This document shows, piece after piece, positions 11,331 through 47,670 of a stretch of DNA of 64,000 nt (position 1 is the first letter of the stretch; the number at the start of each line of letters is the position of its first letter). The translations under genes were made by a program, and so were the position numbers. The DNA is from Rhodopseudomonas palustris HaA2. Its GTDB lineage: Bacteria > Pseudomonadota > Alphaproteobacteria > Rhizobiales > Xanthobacteraceae. The notes beneath the pieces were generated by a model. The model was not told the DNA's origin and ran no database searches. It saw nothing but the letters and a program-made list of their open reading frames with translations. The stretch lies in NCBI RefSeq assembly GCF_000013365.1, contig NC_007778.1:3348001-3412000 (forward strand), read 5' to 3'.

Positions 11331-12143
11331 CTAGCGGCCGGCCGGCCGTCCATACTGCAGGACTTCAACCTTCTCCATCGTCACCATCCCGCCGGGCATC
11401 ATCTCGTCGAGTGCGGGCAGAAAACGCGAAACAGCATCTTCGCCGTCGATGATCTCGATGATCAGGGGGAGAGTGTCCGGAACGCCGAGGGCGTTTGCCA
11501 GATGCATCTGGCTGGACTGCCCATAGCCGGCAGGTCCGCGAAATACGGTGGCACCGGCCAGCTGCATTTCACGGGCCTTCAGCACGATCGCCTCGTAGAG
11601 CGGCATACCGTCGTGTTGGTCGGATTCGTCGACGAAAATCCGCAGCAGCGTCGCGTGACGGGGGATCTGGAGATTCTCAGCCTCCGCTCCTGTCGCAGCC
11701 ACGGTTCGCAAGCGGTTCAGCCTTGTCGCAACGGCGTATCCGACCCAGACGGCAATCAGCCACGCGACCGGAGATGCGGCGACATTGGCCAATGCGGCGG
11801 CGCGATGGCCATGATGGATCAACTGGAGCGTGTCGAGGCTGAATCCCGAGAAGGTCGTATAGCCCCCACAGATTCCGGTCATCACGAATTGGCGTTGGCG
11901 TGTCCCCGCAAAGATCCGCCCGTCGGGCCCGGTCAGGGTGGCATAAAAGCCGATAATGAAAGATCCGGTGACGTTGACGAACAGGATCGCCCACGGAAAG
12001 GGTGGGCCGACGAGCGCCAATTGCGCAACGCCGACGAGGTACCGCGACAACCCGCCGATGACGCTGCCCAATGCAATGAGGCCATAGAGCGTGAAGCGCT
12101 CCCATGCGCGCATCGCCCAATCGGGAATTCTACGATCTGTCAT
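11331..12143 (-). CDS. crcB: CrcB-DUF190 fusion (fluoride channel)
   Basis: This 270-residue protein joins a full CrcB/Fluc domain (about residues 12-140, four helices) to a DUF190 domain (about 165-265). CrcB motifs are GGLSRY, FPWAILFVNVTGSF and GGYTTFSGFS, the phenylalanine-box segment of fluoride channels. The DUF190 part has the same LLRIF...EAIVLKAREM...IIEII pattern as the neighbouring stand-alone gene. Fluc channels are dual-topology dimers that export fluoride. With a second crcB just upstream (36-base gap), a heterodimer is likely. Fusion to DUF190 would tether a PII-like domain to the channel. Confidence 0.88.
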   Translation of the reverse strand: MTDRRIPDWAMRAWERFTLYGLIALGSVIGGLSRYLVGVAQLALVGPPFPWAILFVNVTGSFIIGFYATLTGPDGRIFAGTRQRQFVMTGICGGYTTFSGFSLDTLQLIHHGHRAAALANVAASPVAWLIAVWVGYAVATRLNRLRTVAATGAEAENLQIPRHATLLRIFVDESDQHDGMPLYEAIVLKAREMQLAGATVFRGPAGYGQSSQMHLANALGVPDTLPLIIEIIDGEDAVSRFLPALDEMMPGGMVTMEKVEVLQYGRPAGR

Positions 12144-12179
12144 GACGAAACTGCCGTTTCCGGGCGGCTGGAATGGCAA

Positions 12180-12581
12180 TCACGGCAGATCCCCGGTTGC
12201 GAGCATAAAACCGATAGCGGCAAGGCCGAGACATAGGATCAAGGAGATCGCGACGTTGCCGATGGCTCTCCAGCGTTCGCCTTCACGCGCAAGCGTCAGG
12301 GTCTGCAAGCTGAAGGACGAGACGGTGGTGTAGCACCCCAGAAACCCCGTGACCGCGAACAGCCAGGGGGCCGGCTGAGACAACAGCCCGTGCCCACTGT
12401 TGGCCAAGCCACCGAGAATCCCGATGGCAAGAGCTCCCGTCGCGTTGACCGTCAAGGTGCCCCACGGGAACGTCTCGCCAATAGTGCGGGCGACGAATCC
12501 AGAGATCCCAAATCGAGCCACCCCGCCGAACATGCTGCCGAGTGCGACCCAGATGGCCCCGTAGATGATGTCCATACTCAC
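12180..12581 (-). CDS. crcB: CrcB fluoride channel subunit
   Basis: A 133-residue CrcB/Fluc protein with four hydrophobic helices and the motifs GGVARFGISGF, FPWGTLTVNATGA and TGFLGCYTTVSSFS. The last motif departs from the usual GGxTTFSTFS: Gly is replaced by Cys and the first box Phe by Val, while the second Phe is kept. The downstream fused copy keeps the consensus. This asymmetry fits a heterodimeric channel in which the two subunits have specialised. It is first gene of the crcB / crcB-DUF190 / DUF190 operon. I saw no convincing fluoride riboswitch upstream. Confidence 0.9.
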   Translation of the reverse strand: MSMDIIYGAIWVALGSMFGGVARFGISGFVARTIGETFPWGTLTVNATGALAIGILGGLANSGHGLLSQPAPWLFAVTGFLGCYTTVSSFSLQTLTLAREGERWRAIGNVAISLILCLGLAAIGFMLATGDLP

Positions 12582-13242
12582 TGCTCGCTACGACGTGTCG
12601 TGTGTTGGCCGACGAATTCACGGCTGTGCGGCAACTATCAACGGTGTTGCCGGCAACGGGAGAGCGCCGTTGCGTTCGCCCGGTGGGACACCCGTGCATT
12701 CGGGGGCTGAATATACCGCCCCGAACAAAACGGTCACGACGATCTACCGAACGAATGTGTAGCGATCAACAAAGCTGTTGTGCAGCTCGAGACTGCGCAA
12801 ACGTTCGTGATCAGTTGTCATCGCCGGTTGGACTCCTATCGAACGGGCGAGTGCTTCGACACCGTAGAAGAACGTATTGTCGCGCTCTGCCGCCAAGCCA
12901 TTGTCGGATTGACGATCCGTTGCGTCCTTTGTATGGAAAACGGCGATGGGGATGGAGTCCCCCGACAACCGCCGCGAGGCTGATGACTCCTACCGGGCGC
13001 GTTCGCGTCGGTAGGAGTGTGTCCAACTCTCCTTCGACAGAACCCCCGACACACTTCAGTTTCGACGACCTGCAGAGGTCGCCGAGCGATGTCGTTTGTC
13101 GCCGCGCTGCGTGCCTTGCTGGTCATGCTCGCGGGACGTACTTGTGCGCTCTGCGCTTTGGCCGCCGTTGCGGCGAAAATGATGCCGGCGTTGGGCCCGG
13201 GTGCGAAGCAGAAGCTCGTGTTGTTGCCGCTTTGGGGGATCG
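12582..13242. other. Intergenic region upstream of crcB operon
   Basis: These 661 bases separate the divergent crcB operon and a hypothetical gene. No frame carries a recognisable domain; a plus-strand frame at 13089-13283 with a hydrophobic start is possible but overlaps the next gene. A perfect 10-bp hairpin lies at 12986-13018, and a strong stem near 12635-12680 lies in the crcB leader. Confidence 0.5.
12986..13018. repeat. Perfect 10-bp inverted repeat
   Basis: ACTCCTACCG (12986-12995) pairs with CGGTAGGAGT (13009-13018), with a GC-rich inner region that can also pair around TTCG. There is no T-run on either side, so it may be an operator, a structured RNA element or a factor-dependent terminator. 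Confidence 0.6.
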
Positions 13243-13617
13243 ATGGCCAGGATCGGGAACGCCCGCACGATTGCAGACATTGAATTCGTCATCGATGCGC
13301 CAAGCCCTGCCACCGACCAGGCCACGTGGACGGTTCACGGCGTGGAATGCTCTCGCGAACGACACCGATACAATGGACCAAGCTACTCGTTCGCCCTCGA
13401 GATTCTCCAGTTGCGATCGAAGGCGCAAGGGCAGCCGCCATGGCATGTCGTCATCATCGGCGAACTTTGGAATTTTTACGACGCCAAGGCGGCGCCGCAC
13501 AAAACCCAGCACCTCAAGGTGATTTCCGGCAAAGCCGCCGATATCCTCGCGTGGATGCGGCACAACAGGAATGCGAAGCTTCAGCGAGCGACCTCGCACG
13601 ACGGTCGACCCGAGTGA
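13243..13617 (+). CDS. Hypothetical protein, 124 residues
   Basis: The frame starting at ATG 13243 (MARIGNARTIADIEFVIDAP) follows TGGGGGATCG and encodes a soluble, mixed-composition protein with a WHVVIIGELWNFYDA segment and a C-terminal GKAADILAWMRHNR segment. It has no signal peptide or membrane helix. I do not recognise a family. The amino-acid composition and codon bias look like real coding sequence, better than the surrounding frames. It is flanked by the crcB leader and a convergent zinc-ribbon gene, in the accessory-looking block. Confidence 0.55.
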   Translation: MARIGNARTIADIEFVIDAPSPATDQATWTVHGVECSRERHRYNGPSYSFALEILQLRSKAQGQPPWHVVIIGELWNFYDAKAAPHKTQHLKVISGKAADILAWMRHNRNAKLQRATSHDGRPE

Positions 13618-13697
13618 CTCGGCATCGCGCAGAAACAGGTCGATGGACCACGGGCGGGTTTCGGGAGGAGCTTTCGACCCGCGCCGCGTCAAGGCTC

Positions 13698-13898
13698 TCA
13701 CGCGACCGCCGGTGCACCCGGCTCGCGCAGCAGCACCCAATATGATTCCGGCCCGGCCTTGACGGCGTAGCGGTCGACGTGGCCGCAGGTCAGGCATTCG
13801 AAGGTGCGCAGTTCGTGGATGTTCTCGATCGGAAAAATCCGCGCCAGCGCCGTCCGCTCTCCGCATGCGGTGCATTCGGGCCGTCGTCGTCGATCCAT
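13698..13898 (-). CDS. Small zinc-ribbon protein
   Basis: A 66-residue protein with two CxxC knuckles, CTAC (residues 9-12) and CLTC (35-38), separated by a short loop, which is the layout of a zinc ribbon. The sequence between (IENIHELRTFEC) and after (GHVDRYAVK) is typical of small Rhizobiales hypotheticals annotated from Bradyrhizobium and Rhodopseudomonas. Its role is unknown; zinc ribbons usually contact nucleic acid or protein. It starts at ATG 13898 after ACCTGTC and stands alone. Confidence 0.7.
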   Translation of the reverse strand: MDRRRRPECTACGERTALARIFPIENIHELRTFECLTCGHVDRYAVKAGPESYWVLLREPGAPAVA

Positions 13899-14187
13899 GA
13901 CAGGTCCTGATCAGGTAGCAGCGGGCGACTGTGAGCCCTGAGTCTGCGAATCACGATACGGCGGCGACGCGCGCGGATATTGACGCAGAGCAAGCCGCGC
14001 ATGGCCGACGGTCGGAATTCGACGCCGCCGACCTTCGGATGGTCTCGGACGACCTCGCGCGGCGCGCATCTGCCCTGCGCGTCCGGCGGCGCCAAATCGG
14101 CGCCAAGCGGGAATACCGGCGAACAATTTGCGCCACCACCCGTTGCGCAGGGGTATGTTCCGCGTGTTCACGGCACAGGAGATTCCC

Positions 14188-14766
14188 ATGACACTCTCAG
14201 ACGGACCCGAGCGGCTTCAGGCCACGGTCGAGGCGGCGATCGGCAAGCACTGGAAGGCCTATCTGGTCGAAGGCATCCTGCTTCTGGTCTTCGGCTTCGC
14301 CGCGATCCTGCTGCCGCTGCTCGCCAGCCTCGCGATCACGATCCTGCTCGGCTGGCTTTTCCTGGTCAGCGGCATCGCCGGCCTCGCCTTCAGCTTCTGG
14401 GCGCGGCAGGCGCCGGGGTTCTGGTGGTCGCTGGCCTCCGCAATCCTGGCGGTGATCGCCGGCATCGTCGTGATCTCGATGCCGGTGGAGATCACGGTGA
14501 CGCTCACCTTGGTGATCGGCATCTACTTCCTGGCCGAAGGCGTGGCGACGATCATGTACGCGCTCCAGCACCGCGGCCGGCTGTCGGAACGCTGGGGCTG
14601 GATGCTCGCCGCCGGCGTGCTCGACATCCTGGTGGCGTTCATCATCATCTCGGGATGGCCCGGCACCGCGGCCTGGGCGGTCGGCCTTCTGGTCGGCATC
14701 AATCTGGTGTTCGGCGGCACCTCGCTGATCGCGATGGCGCTCGCCGCCCGCAACAAGGCGTCATGA
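14188..14766 (+). CDS. HdeD family membrane protein (DUF308)
   Basis: A 192-residue integral membrane protein with about six helices in three GxxxxxxG-rich hairpins, ending in a short positive tail. The repeated DUF308 pattern is visible: LVEGILLLVFGFAAILLP, ITILLGWLFLVSGIAGLAFS and VIGIYFLAEGVATIMYAL. In E. coli HdeD contributes to acid resistance at high cell density; the biochemical role is unknown. I chose ATG 14188 (MTLSDGPERLQ) because CAGGAGATTCCC precedes it. It is convergent with a small secreted-protein gene. Confidence 0.85.
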   Translation: MTLSDGPERLQATVEAAIGKHWKAYLVEGILLLVFGFAAILLPLLASLAITILLGWLFLVSGIAGLAFSFWARQAPGFWWSLASAILAVIAGIVVISMPVEITVTLTLVIGIYFLAEGVATIMYALQHRGRLSERWGWMLAAGVLDILVAFIIISGWPGTAAWAVGLLVGINLVFGGTSLIAMALAARNKAS

Positions 14767-43874: not shown

Positions 43875-43896
43875 ACCCGATACGAAAGCGCTGCGC

Positions 43897-45291
43897 ATGC
43901 TTACGCATTTAAAACTACAAAACTTCAAATCTTGGAGAAATGCCAATATCGCACTCGCGCCACTTACAGCCCTCTATGGCGCTAATTCATCCGGGAAAAG
44001 CAGCATAATTCAGTTCTTATTGATGCTGAAGCAAACGAAGGACTCGCAGGACCGGTCGTTAGCGCTCGACTTCGGAGGAGTCGAATCCCCCGCAGACCTT
44101 GGATCATTCAAGGATGCAGTCTTCTTTCACCAGGAAGATAATGCCATCTCCTGGCAACTCGACTGGCATCTCAAGAGCGACCTAAAAATTGCAGACCCAT
44201 CCGGAAAGCGAACTGACTATCTGTTTGAAGGAAGGGAGATCAAGATTTCTTCCTCAGTTAGACTTCGTAACAAGCAGGCGGTCGGCGAGTATCTCGAATA
44301 CGATTTTGCAGGAACACAATTTACTCTCAAACGCGCAAGAGAACGACCTGCGTTTCAATTAGACACGCAAGGTCCGAACGACTTTCGGTTCATCCGAACG
44401 CTGGGACGCAAGTGGGATTTGCCGGGCCCAACAAAATCCTACGCCTTTCCCGATCAAGCTCGACTCTACTTCCAAAATTCTCAGTTTCTGAGCGAATTTG
44501 AGAACGAGTACGTCAAACAGATGGATAGCCTGATTCATCTTGGCCCGCTCCGAGACTACCCCAAACGTCAGTATATTTGGGCTGGATCTAGCCCGATCGA
44601 CGTTGGGCGGACCGGCGAGCGGACTATCGAGGCTATACTTGCCGCCACCTCCCGGAACGAAGTCAGAAACCTTCGCGCCAAAGCTCGACTAAGGCCATTT
44701 CAAGAGATGATAGCTTGGTGGCTTAGGGAAATGGGCCTCATCCACTCATTTAAACTCGTGGAGATCGGTTCTGGTGCTGGACTTTATCGAACTGTAATCA
44801 AGCGCGACCCTGAATCTCCAGAAACGCTTATAACGGATGTTGGATTCGGAATTTCTCAGATTCTTCCCGCTCTCGTTCTACTATACTACGCACCTGAGGG
44901 ATCGACGATCGTACTCGAACAACCAGAAATACATCTTCATCCCGCAATTCAGTCTTCTCTTGCAGACTTGATCATAACCGCAATTAAGACCCGCAACATA
45001 CAGGTCATTCTCGAGAGCCACAGCGAGCATCTGCTCATGCGACTATTGAGGCGAGTAGCCGAGGGTAACAAGTCACCATATCCCGAGATTGAACCCCAAG
45101 ATATGAAGGTTTATTTTTGCCAAGCTCGTGACGGAGAATCACGAGCGGAGGAATTGAAGGTGAACTTGTTCGGCTCGATCGAGAATTGGCCAACCGATTT
45201 CTTCGGCGATCAATTTGGAGAGATCGCAGCGCGCGAGGAGGCGGCTATCCAGAAACAAGCCGCATTGAGCAAACGTGCGCGCAATCGTTGA
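43897..45291 (+). CDS. ABC/OLD-like ATPase, DUF3696 type
   Basis: A 464-residue SMC/ABC-type ATPase with no TOPRIM or transmembrane part. Walker A is GANSSGKSS (28-36), then the family motif HLGPLRDYPKRQY (214-226), an ABC signature-like segment VGFGISQILP (315-324), Walker B TIVLEQPEIHLHP (337-349) and the switch ESHSEHLL (373-380). A C-terminal DFFGDQFGE (434-442) matches DUF3696 proteins. Such ATPases drive defence systems by sensing phage DNA or proteins and controlling a partner nuclease. Codon use is visibly AT-richer than parE, suggesting transfer. The stop overlaps the PIN-like gene by 17 bases. The start is 22 bases after parE, so no separate promoter is obvious. Confidence 0.85.
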   Translation: MLTHLKLQNFKSWRNANIALAPLTALYGANSSGKSSIIQFLLMLKQTKDSQDRSLALDFGGVESPADLGSFKDAVFFHQEDNAISWQLDWHLKSDLKIADPSGKRTDYLFEGREIKISSSVRLRNKQAVGEYLEYDFAGTQFTLKRARERPAFQLDTQGPNDFRFIRTLGRKWDLPGPTKSYAFPDQARLYFQNSQFLSEFENEYVKQMDSLIHLGPLRDYPKRQYIWAGSSPIDVGRTGERTIEAILAATSRNEVRNLRAKARLRPFQEMIAWWLREMGLIHSFKLVEIGSGAGLYRTVIKRDPESPETLITDVGFGISQILPALVLLYYAPEGSTIVLEQPEIHLHPAIQSSLADLIITAIKTRNIQVILESHSEHLLMRLLRRVAEGNKSPYPEIEPQDMKVYFCQARDGESRAEELKVNLFGSIENWPTDFFGDQFGEIAAREEAAIQKQAALSKRARNR

Positions 45292-45778
45292 TGAAAACGT
45301 GGCGATTGTCGCAAATGATGTTTCGCGGCAGATCAAACAAGCCCCTCAAGCCTCGATCGCTTGTCGAATGGCGTGCATCGATGCGCTGAAAAAAGTTGTT
45401 AAGAATGGGATTGTTGTATTGGATGACGCGGGTGAGGTGCTTGCGAAATATCGCCATTACCTGAATGGCCGGGGACTGCCAGGCGTTGGCGATGCATTCC
45501 TCCGGCACATTGTCGAGAATCAATACAATCCTAGAAAGGTTCGAAGACAGGCACTCAGAAGGAACGAAGATGGCAGCTTTGCCGATTTTCCTGTCGATGC
45601 TAGCTTAGCTCGCTTCGATCCAGCAGATCGGATCTTTGTAGCACTTGCTTGCGCGGTGTCTGATCGATGTTCAATCTTAAATGCAGTGGACAGCGACTAC
45701 TCAATTCACATTAAAGACTTAAGCTCGTTTGGGGTGGAGGTCGTTGAACTATGCCCTGACTGTCTTCGAAAAGGCTAA
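45275..45778 (+). CDS. PIN-like nuclease domain protein
   Basis: The 167-residue product starts at GTG 45275, inside the end of the ATPase gene (17-base overlap). It resembles a PIN domain: Asp6 (MRAIVDENVAIV), acidic VVLDDAGE (Asp50/51), Glu81 (FLRHIVENQ), Asp118 (FDPADRIFVALA) and Asp139/Asp141 (ILNAVDSDYSI), the acidic pattern that binds metal in Mg-dependent RNases. The second half has the ADRIFVALA helix and final strand GVEVVEL. It is probably the effector of the ATPase gene's module. There is no antitoxin-like gene. Low-GC composition matches its partner. Confidence 0.75.
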   Translation: MRAIVDENVAIVANDVSRQIKQAPQASIACRMACIDALKKVVKNGIVVLDDAGEVLAKYRHYLNGRGLPGVGDAFLRHIVENQYNPRKVRRQALRRNEDGSFADFPVDASLARFDPADRIFVALACAVSDRCSILNAVDSDYSIHIKDLSSFGVEVVELCPDCLRKG

Positions 45779-46161: not shown

Positions 46162-47670
46162 TCACCGCCGGAACGTCTTGATCTCCGACACCGAGCCGTC
46201 GCGATAGGTCAGTTCGACCGACACCGACTTCACGCCGGGCGACAATTTCAGATAGGGCGTGGCGCTGCTCGGGATCGCGACCGGGTCGCGCAGGTCGCAG
46301 GCGGGCAGTTTCAGCACCTTGTCGGGCACCGCGCTGTCGATGCCGATCCTCACCTCGCGGATCGCGCAGCGATACGACATCAGATGCGTGTAGTAGACCA
46401 GCAGGCCGTTGTAGTCGCGAAACGACAGCCAGCTCGTCGCGGTCATGTCGAGGATCTTGCGCTGGTCGCGCAGCAATGCAGCCTCCGGCTCGAACCGGAT
46501 CGGAAACGGCCCCTGCGTCTCGCCGAGCGCATCGACATAGCGCACCTCGATGGTCGAGGCCTGGGCATCGGCGGGGAGCTGGATCGACGGGTTCGGCATC
46601 CGCTTGCGGGTGCGCGGATCGAGCGTGTCCATGAAGCCGGTCTCGCGGAACTCGCCGCTGTCGCCGAGCCGCCAGGAGATGCCGAGCGTCGGATCAGCGA
46701 TCGAGAACACCACGGTCCAGCCGCCATTGTGGCGGGAGAAGCTGGCGATCGGCGCGTTGAGACTCTCCGAGGTCGGCGGCTTCAGCGGCGCCACCGGCGG
46801 CAGCGCGGCGACCTTCTGCGGCGGCGCGGCGGACGCTACCGGCGCGGCCGCGGCTGCGGCGGGCTTCGCCGCGCCGTTCAGAAACACGTCGTCGACCATC
46901 TGGTCGAAATACACCGGCACCTGCCGATGGCCGACGGTGTCGGCCATCTCGCTGACGGCGCGGCGCGTCCGCTGCGCGACCTGCACCAGGTTCTCGCCGG
47001 GATCGAGCAGTTGCTTGGCGAACACCCGGGTGAACACCGAATTCGGATCGGCGTCGGTGTCCGACAGCCGGTCGAGCGCGGTCTGCCGCGGCCCGGCCGA
47101 GAACACCGAGAACACGCCCTCGGGCAGCGTCGTCATCGGCGCCAGCCCGCCGCGGCCACTCAGCGCGCGGACGCCGCGGCGCTCGAACGGATTGTTGCGG
47201 CAGGCGTCGAACACCAGGATCGCAGTGCGCGCGCCGCGATTCTGCAGCCGCTCGACGATGCGGTCGGCGAGCACCGAGGCGTCGCGGACCAGCTCCTCCT
47301 GGCCTTCGGTCGCCGCCGGCACATCGGTCGGCAGCAGGAAGTTCTGGCCGGAAATTTCGAAACCGTGGCCGGCGTAGAAGAAGAACGCTGTGTCGCCGGG
47401 CTCGATCGCCTGATCGAACGCCAGCAGGCTCTGGCTGAATGCCGTGCGGTTCTGATTCTCCGCCACCATCACCTGAAAGCCGAGCGTGCGCAGCGCGTCG
47501 CCCATGGTGCGGGCGTCGTTCACCGCTTTCTGCAGCTTCGGAACGTTGCGATAATCGTTGTTGCCGACCACCAGCGCGACGCGCTTGGCGGCCTCGGCGG
47601 GCGCGCTGCCGATCAGCACCGCGGCGATCATCCCGATCGCCGATAGTCCCCACCGCGCCAGCGATCGCAT
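46162..47670 (-). CDS. Periplasmic caspase-like peptidase (C14)
   Basis: A 502-residue protein with a signal peptide (MRSLARWGLSAIGMIAAVLIG, end near residue 27) and an orthocaspase-type domain (about 30-260). The catalytic dyad is visible: His102 in FYAGHGF and Cys157 in FDACRNNPF. A proline-rich linker (about 270-300) leads to a C-terminal domain of about 200 residues of unknown fold with a YRDGSVSEIKTF end. Bacterial caspase homologues cleave after Arg/Lys or Asp, and this one acts outside the cytoplasm. The function is not known. Confidence 0.85.
   Translation of the reverse strand: MRSLARWGLSAIGMIAAVLIGSAPAEAAKRVALVVGNNDYRNVPKLQKAVNDARTMGDALRTLGFQVMVAENQNRTAFSQSLLAFDQAIEPGDTAFFFYAGHGFEISGQNFLLPTDVPAATEGQEELVRDASVLADRIVERLQNRGARTAILVFDACRNNPFERRGVRALSGRGGLAPMTTLPEGVFSVFSAGPRQTALDRLSDTDADPNSVFTRVFAKQLLDPGENLVQVAQRTRRAVSEMADTVGHRQVPVYFDQMVDDVFLNGAAKPAAAAAAPVASAAPPQKVAALPPVAPLKPPTSESLNAPIASFSRHNGGWTVVFSIADPTLGISWRLGDSGEFRETGFMDTLDPRTRKRMPNPSIQLPADAQASTIEVRYVDALGETQGPFPIRFEPEAALLRDQRKILDMTATSWLSFRDYNGLLVYYTHLMSYRCAIREVRIGIDSAVPDKVLKLPACDLRDPVAIPSSATPYLKLSPGVKSVSVELTYRDGSVSEIKTFRR

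Follow-up and report, generated by a model that had tools for sequence, protein, structure and literature searches.

A standalone HEC-03 pair of ATPase and PIN-like protein beside parE in Rhodopseudomonas palustris HaA2: a candidate defence system with an altered active site

Two genes downstream of parE in Rhodopseudomonas palustris HaA2 are read here, at a probability of roughly 0.6, as a standalone and probably acquired copy of HEC-03, a candidate defence system in which an ATPase would gate a ribonuclease. The window, meaning the whole stretch of 64,000 nucleotides that was analysed (NC_007778.1, positions 3,348,001 to 3,412,000), was compared with loci of relatives, which are designated by L numbers. 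The comparison establishes the identity of the family, the obligate pairing and co-inheritance of its two proteins, PIN-type motifs in the family and, for part of the relatives, a position near or within restriction and Hma operons.

Both genes are on the forward strand; the first encodes an ATPase of 464 amino acids and the second a small protein of 167 amino acids (Table 1). A preliminary description, made from the letters alone, had given the open reading frames, their overlap of 17 bases, the size of the small protein and a 22-base junction with parE, all of which the sequence confirms. It had also called the genes visibly richer in AT than their neighbours, and this holds: GC is 0.495 in the ATPase gene and 0.494 in the small gene against 0.67 in parE, and GC3 is 0.514 and 0.464 against 0.875. 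The ATPase gene has the lowest GC3 among the 34 long ORFs of the window, which were picked greedily and some of which may be antisense. From their translations, the ORFs flanking the pair read as ordinary genes and none reads as a defence gene. Promoter and terminator scans gave results near chance level, and the one N6 methylase match in the genome lies about 93 kb from the pair. Elsewhere in the window, the ORF at 46162-47670 on the reverse strand has an N-terminal half that resembles a caspase-like (peptidase C14) protein, as judged from its translation.

Table 1. Features of the HEC-03 pair in the window, and RNA ligase genes at loci of relatives (positions with an L number refer to that locus).
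Feature	Position	Strand	Details and basis
Junction, parE stop to ATPase ATG, 22 bases	43875..43896	+	sequence
HEC-03B ATPase gene, ABC/OLD-type, AAA_15/AAA_21 and C-terminal DUF3696	43897..45291	+	464 aa, ATG start; PADLOC, Pfam
Walker A GANSSGKSS, residues 28-36	43978..44004	+	conserved in ATPase alignment
ABC signature-like DVGFGISQ, residues 314-321	44836..44859	+	conserved in ATPase alignment
Walker B TIVLEQPEIHLHP, residues 337-349	44905..44943	+	conserved in ATPase alignment
H-loop-like ESHSEH, residues 373-378	45013..45030	+	conserved in ATPase alignment
DUF3696, residues 398-443	45088..45225	+	Pfam PF12476, 35.6 bits, cut-off 22
HEC-03A PIN-like protein gene	45275..45778	+	167 aa, GTG start; PADLOC; PIN assignment from family members
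PIN motif I, Asp6-Glu7-Asn8 (family Asp-Thr-Asn)	45290..45298	+	alignment
PIN motif II, position 58, Lys here (family Glu)	45446..45448	+	alignment
PIN motif III, Asp118 with Ile120 (family Lys120)	45626..45634	+	alignment
PIN motif IV, Asp139-x-Asp141-Tyr142 (family Trp142)	45689..45700	+	alignment
RNA ligase (PF09414) genes directly behind HEC-03A	L138:8501-9193, L139:9927-10619, L140:9928-10629, L141:9964-10563		

Searches with HMMs of both proteins, which had been proposed as a check, gave matches of near full length in PADLOC-DB. The ATPase matches HEC-03B (PDLC04148) at 626.4 bits, with residues 1-456 on positions 1-454 of 458, and its next-best match is NsnB at 198.8 bits; the small protein matches HEC-03A (PDLC04147) at 112.7 bits, with residues 1-162 on positions 1-153 of 159, and this is its sole PADLOC match at E up to 1. 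At the same threshold the small protein had no hit in Pfam or NCBIfam. Since both proteins match models under one PADLOC system name, the pair is a listed candidate and not an unknown pair: judged by these models it is a member of HEC-03, a little-studied PADLOC candidate defence system, and the preliminary description, which did not recognise a described system in it, is not borne out on this point. HEC stands for Hma-embedded candidate, and several HECs, including HEC-06, are antiviral according to a 2026 paper that cites the preprint 10.1101/2024.01.29.577857 (excerpts of PMC12988326). In the open full-text literature searched, HEC-03 is named in one paper only, a rumen survey whose excerpts list it as a subtype (PMC13356809), and excerpts of the PADLOC web server paper (PMC9252829) do not mention HEC. 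The literature searched, mostly open-access papers, yielded no activity of HEC-03 itself, nothing relevant on NsnA/NsnB, and one unrelated paper on DUF3696.

The nucleotide-binding motifs read in the preliminary description (Walker A GANSSGKSS, signature VGFGISQ, Walker B TIVLEQPEIHLHP) are confirmed and conserved in the ATPase alignment, as is ESHSEH (residues 373-378), which resembles an H-loop. Among solved structures the ATPase matched an OLD-family nuclease (1.5e-5) and SMC heads. Its Pfam AAA_21 match, a domain described as a putative AbiEii toxin domain, is its sole toxin-antitoxin-related Pfam match. Of the 88 ATPase columns with at least 95% conservation, the window departs from the family at 4, where rows depart at 1.1 on average (rank 6 of 88), and in the alignment these departures fall outside the nucleotide-binding motifs.

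HEC-03A and HEC-03B are obligate, co-inherited partners. Among 398 genomes of the phylum, 15, the window's own included, hold HEC-03B (E up to 1e-60) and the identical 15 hold HEC-03A (E up to 1e-3), with the two genes adjacent and B before A in every one. A 13-row ATPase profile run against species genomes gave at least 592 stretches, 548 of them encoding a relative, and the best 80 were analysed. A lies directly behind B on the same strand in 79 of these best 80 loci, some of the 79 A genes being in pieces or cut by contig ends; at the exception (L111) the contig ends 203 bases after B, and no A fragment was found there. Co-occurrence of the two genes, raised earlier as the point to examine, is thus borne out in both samples. 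The distances within each protein family also agree (Mantel r 0.80 over 70 shared rows; 0 of 2000 permutations as high).

Plasmids and viral contigs give the same picture of the pair. Eleven plasmid records hold B at 1e-40, of which six are predicted conjugative, and A adjoins B in all 11; A is found at 1e-3 in 12 records, and the twelfth (Tistrella) has in front of A a more distant ATPase whose best PADLOC match is still HEC-03B (204.6 bits). Viral contigs hold 35 ATPase relatives. Each of the four that score over 600 bits is paired with A and none of the 31 that score 125-273 bits is, so pairing marks a sharp family boundary. With the small protein as query no relative was found in phage records or in viral contigs; the B profile found the four viral-contig HEC-03 loci that the A query alone missed. 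One of the viral-collection ATPases (L142) is identical in sequence to that of a Delftia contig (L034), and the viral call may reflect a prophage or a mislabelled chromosomal piece.

The pair in the window was probably acquired horizontally, as its atypical base composition and its distribution suggest. Comparison of the parE locus in related strains, which had been suggested as a check of presence or absence, found the pair in none of 15 congeners (no A match; only partial B matches, of at most 23.8 bits), and the content of the junction varies. The 69-amino-acid gene downstream of the pair is present in all 16 genomes of the genus. The end of parE lies inside the fetched flank in 11 of the 15 congeners and outside it in four; the distance from there to the 69-amino-acid gene is 38-122 bases in four congeners (in L123, where the parE end is 98% identical, it is 38 bases), and in the other seven the gap holds 608-1340 bases of other sequence. 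Given the lack of the pair in congeners and the varying gap, its most likely origin is arrival at a variable site just downstream of parE. Three congeners (L126, L131, L132) carry between parE and the 69-amino-acid gene an apparent HigB/HigA-type toxin-antitoxin pair, recognised from its translation; with such a pair where the window has HEC-03, the junction looks like a landing site.

PIN nucleases carry four conserved acids, the Asp of motif I, the Glu of motif II, the Asp of motif III and the Asp of motif IV. The HEC-03A family is PIN-like and is likely to consist of PIN-type nucleases. Its most frequent Pfam matches are PIN_3, in 28 of 79 members, and PIN, in 25 of 79, both weak (best E 7.6e-5 and 5.6e-4); no Pfam PIN model matches the window protein. 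Aligned by hhalign to VapC-type PINs of related genomes, the family gave E 2.4e-4 at a probability of 44% over 59 columns, with motifs I and II aligned and two controls at E 0.14 and 0.36, for a VapC-type set picked with the motif I pattern, which favours motif I. PF01850 was used for that set because PIN_3 gave no match at 1e-12 in the genomes of 21 relatives. Against solved structures the family profile matched no PIN and gave two other matches (E 0.36 and 0.42), and phmmer with the window protein found nothing.

The window copy differs from its family at the PIN motifs themselves. In an alignment of 84 rows, comprising the window and 83 gene pieces from 79 loci, 79 of 80 filled rows retain Asp6 of motif I, and at position 7 Thr is found in 71 of 80 and Glu in the window only. 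At position 58, the motif II position, 77 of 79 filled rows have Glu, one has Gln and one, the window, has Lys. Motif III has Asp118 in 76 of 78 filled rows and Lys120 in 76 of 80, with Ile120 in the window only; motif IV has Asp139 in 76 of 78, Asp141 in 70 of 78 and Trp142 in 76 of 78, with Tyr142 again confined to the window. Cys160 is present in all 77 filled rows. The four-acid set of the window copy is thus Asp6, Lys58, Asp118 and Asp139, and the motif II acid is missing. The acidic pattern proposed in the preliminary description holds for Asp6, Asp118 and Asp139/Asp141, at which the family shows conservation; Glu81 is not a conserved position, and motif II is at position 58. Overall, among the 20 columns with at least 95% conservation, the window protein departs at 3, a number exceeded only by the divergent L028 and L030. 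A planctomycete HEC-03A (L109:11386-11916), with Gln58 in motif II and Glu118 in motif III, is a second natural active-site variant.

Together with Glu7, Ile120 and Tyr142, Lys58 speaks against a normal PIN active site in the window copy. With Lys58 in place of the conserved motif II Glu, the window nuclease may be dead, altered, attenuated or put to a new use. The missing motif II acid also puts in doubt, for this gene, the earlier expectation that the ATPase unleashes the RNase.

The surroundings of relatives bear on a role in defence. PADLOC models identified, among 19 chosen neighbours, HmaA, HmaB, HmaC, a type III methyltransferase and restriction enzyme, a type I methyltransferase and restriction enzyme, a DrmD-like helicase and a mad3-like protein; seven of the 19 had no PADLOC match at 1e-20. 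When the identified neighbours served as blastp queries (E up to 1e-15, at least 200 aligned residues), a restriction, Hma or mad3-like homologue was found on the same strand within five ORFs in 18 of the best 80 loci, three of which (L064, L108, L111) rest on 23-29% identity and one of which is counted for a mad3-like neighbour; this count describes the loci and is no test of enrichment. The other 62 loci, many of them on short contigs, have no such homologue within five ORFs. The gene order is HmaB-B-A-HmaC in L088, L104 and L110; in L044 the pair is flanked by a type III methyltransferase homologue upstream and a type III restriction gene downstream; type I R genes precede the pair in L035 and L083; and the annotated order on an Acinetobacter soli plasmid is N-6 methylase, hypothetical gene, ATPase, A and HNH endonuclease. 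The PADLOC rule for HEC-03 is not known to require Hma. A defence setting of the kind expected earlier is seen in 18 of the best 80 relatives; beside the window copy no defence gene is evident from the translations. In L093, from 11762-14746 onward, two tandem HmaB-like genes lie behind the pair, which suggests a duplicated methylase in an Hma operon.

Part of the family has a third gene. At the first four plasmid loci the gene behind A is annotated as an RNA ligase and matches PF09414 at 107.7-116.3 bits. With a profile grown from these genes, 17 of the best 80 genome loci and three of the four viral loci have a ligase immediately after A, and nine of the 12 plasmid records with A have one beside or near it. 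In one plasmid record (Aeromonas caviae NZ_AP022111.1) there are two matches, of which the one listed lies about 1.7 kb from A; the three Acinetobacter plasmid records with A have no ligase match at 1e-10. Four ligases were compared with the PADLOC models, and none matched. Each of the 21 ligase rows inspected carries the KxDG motif. The window and the other 63 of the best 80 loci gave no ligase match, and in the genome of the window PF09414 is without a match at E up to 0.001.

The ligase label changes five times on the ATPase tree (89 rows, built by a quick method and with some long branches) against 21.3 times in shuffles, none of 500 being as low, so the ligase has largely been inherited together with the pair. 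The ligase occurs in one large clade (support 94; 17 of 20 rows) and, apart from it, in the seven deep plasmid and viral rows; the rows of the large clade without ligase are L078, where the contig ends inside A, L067 and L077. The last of these has a truncated HEC-03A match as well and is possibly a degraded system. The window row has a long branch (0.93), lies outside the ligase clade and has no starred small set around it. Elsewhere on the tree, two loci from genomes labelled Phycisphaeraceae (L096) and Leptolyngbya (L107) have close ATPases on end branches of 0.2 and 0.04, possibly from mixed metagenome bins or recent transfer. The ligase is found in none of the 18 restriction, Hma or mad3-like loci and in 17 of the 62 others (Fisher p 0.009), a contrast that reduces to only three phylogenetically independent pairs; such an exclusion would fit two ways of keeping an RNase safe. 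Excerpts of PMC3710099, PMC11090510 and PMC12707154 do not describe an operon of ATPase, PIN protein and RNA ligase.

From these observations we infer an RNA target, control of the nuclease by the ATPase, a trigger and an antiviral outcome as follows. HEC-03B would be a resting ABC-type ATPase that detects either an invader or a restriction system that has failed; once activated, it would license the PIN-type ribonuclease HEC-03A, which would cut RNA and so stop translation or growth, and an RNA ligase, where one travels with the pair, could repair the breaks in cells that are uninfected or that survive. By analogy, the most likely working mode would resemble that of the restriction guardian PrrC. 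Of the preliminary reading as a whole, the pairing of an ATPase with a PIN-like protein, a likely horizontal origin and the defence context of relatives stand, and the novelty of the pair and Glu81 as a catalytic acid are given up.

The altered active site bears on whether the window copy is decaying or repurposed, with an intact ATPase and a PIN protein without catalysis that serves at most as a binding subunit. This is a tentative reading, at less than even odds, to which the residues at positions 7, 58, 120 and 142 point, as does the share of conserved columns changed in the small protein, the largest among the 79 rows bar the two divergent ones; the ATPase too is above average in its departures, so some drift may affect both genes. 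Against it, both frames are open and without stops, the nucleotide-binding motifs of the ATPase are kept, Asp6, Asn8, Asp118, Asp139 and Cys160 are retained, and the changes at positions 7, 58 and 120 jointly keep the net charge and would fit a rewired site. A closer parallel to PrrC, in which a partner restriction-modification complex silences the nuclease, phage attack on the partner frees it, and restriction-less forms rely on repair by the RNA ligase, is possible if doubtful. It draws on the Hma, type III and type I arrangements described above, on the absence of ligase from loci with restriction, Hma or mad3-like genes and on the precedent of PrrC (excerpts of PMC2610378 and PMC12707154); however, three independent pairs give that exclusion no power, embedding in such operons may also hold for unrelated defence cargo, and neither partner is evident beside the window copy.

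A toxin-antitoxin or addiction module, with the ATPase as antitoxin of a PIN toxin, is unlikely. PIN domains are best known from VapC toxins (excerpts of PMC13092281), and the predicted conjugative plasmids among the records with B would suit an addiction module, but the ATPase is large, has full ABC-type motifs and matches PADLOC defence ATPases, and its AAA_21 match is to a putative toxin domain, not to an antitoxin. That the two are ordinary host RNA-processing genes with no defence role is very improbable; RNA ligase neighbours in part of the family would suit such a role, but the pair is patchy (15 of 398 genomes), missing from 15 of 15 congeners and atypical in base composition, and restriction, Hma or mad3-like genes lie near 18 of the best 80 relatives.

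A bolder proposal, which we regard as speculative and rather doubtful, would make HEC-03 a two-protein, PIN-based counterpart of PrrC: its RNase would be held in check by the restriction or Hma complex of the host operon or, in standalone forms, by an RNA ligase of the same operon that reseals the cuts, and the window copy would represent a version reduced to two genes, its site rewired (Glu7/Lys58/Ile120 for Thr/Glu/Lys). If this were true, HEC-03 would be a defence system with its own RNA repair enzyme, and the ligase would be a third component missing from the PADLOC models. Independently of that proposal, HEC-03 can now be described as a firmly delimited genetic unit, in which ATPase and PIN protein are obligate partners in several phyla. 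The type of its nuclease is now likely, one natural variant of the active site has come to light, and part of the family has an RNA ligase as third gene. The chief value lies in the active-site variant of the window and, above all, in the RNA ligase partner of relatives, as a defence RNase accompanied by an RNA ligase of its own would lend itself directly to testing as a cut-and-repair or self-limiting system.

Among known systems the pair is closest to HEC-03 itself, to which both proteins correspond at near full length and whose other members show the same B-A order between HmaB and HmaC; the window copy differs in standing alone, in its altered PIN active site and in being without the RNA ligase found in part of the family. 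The likeness to PARIS consists of an AriA-type match of the window ATPase, at 103 bits against 626 for HEC-03B; membership was rejected, as no AriB match was found and the small protein matches only HEC-03A (E up to 1). Gabija and Septu share a related ATPase domain (GajA 40.8 bits, PtuA 24.3 bits). The partner in Gabija is the GajB helicase and that in Septu the PtuB HNH nuclease; the small protein matches no partner of either, and both systems were rejected.

In PrrC and RloC an ABC-type ATPase controls an RNase, as would be the case in HEC-03, and PrrC is associated with type I restriction (excerpts of PMC2610378 and PMC12707154). They differ in joining the ATPase and a HEPN nuclease in one polypeptide (excerpts of PMC3710099), whereas HEC-03 has two proteins and a PIN-type nuclease; with separate genes and no HEPN match in Pfam, membership was rejected. 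VapC-type PINs share with the HEC-03A family the DTN of motif I and the Glu of motif II, which align; in contrast to them, HEC-03A has an ATPase as partner, and the profile similarity is weak and limited to the N-terminal half. In two other PIN-dependent defence systems, protection is lost in catalytic mutants (excerpts of PMC13092281).
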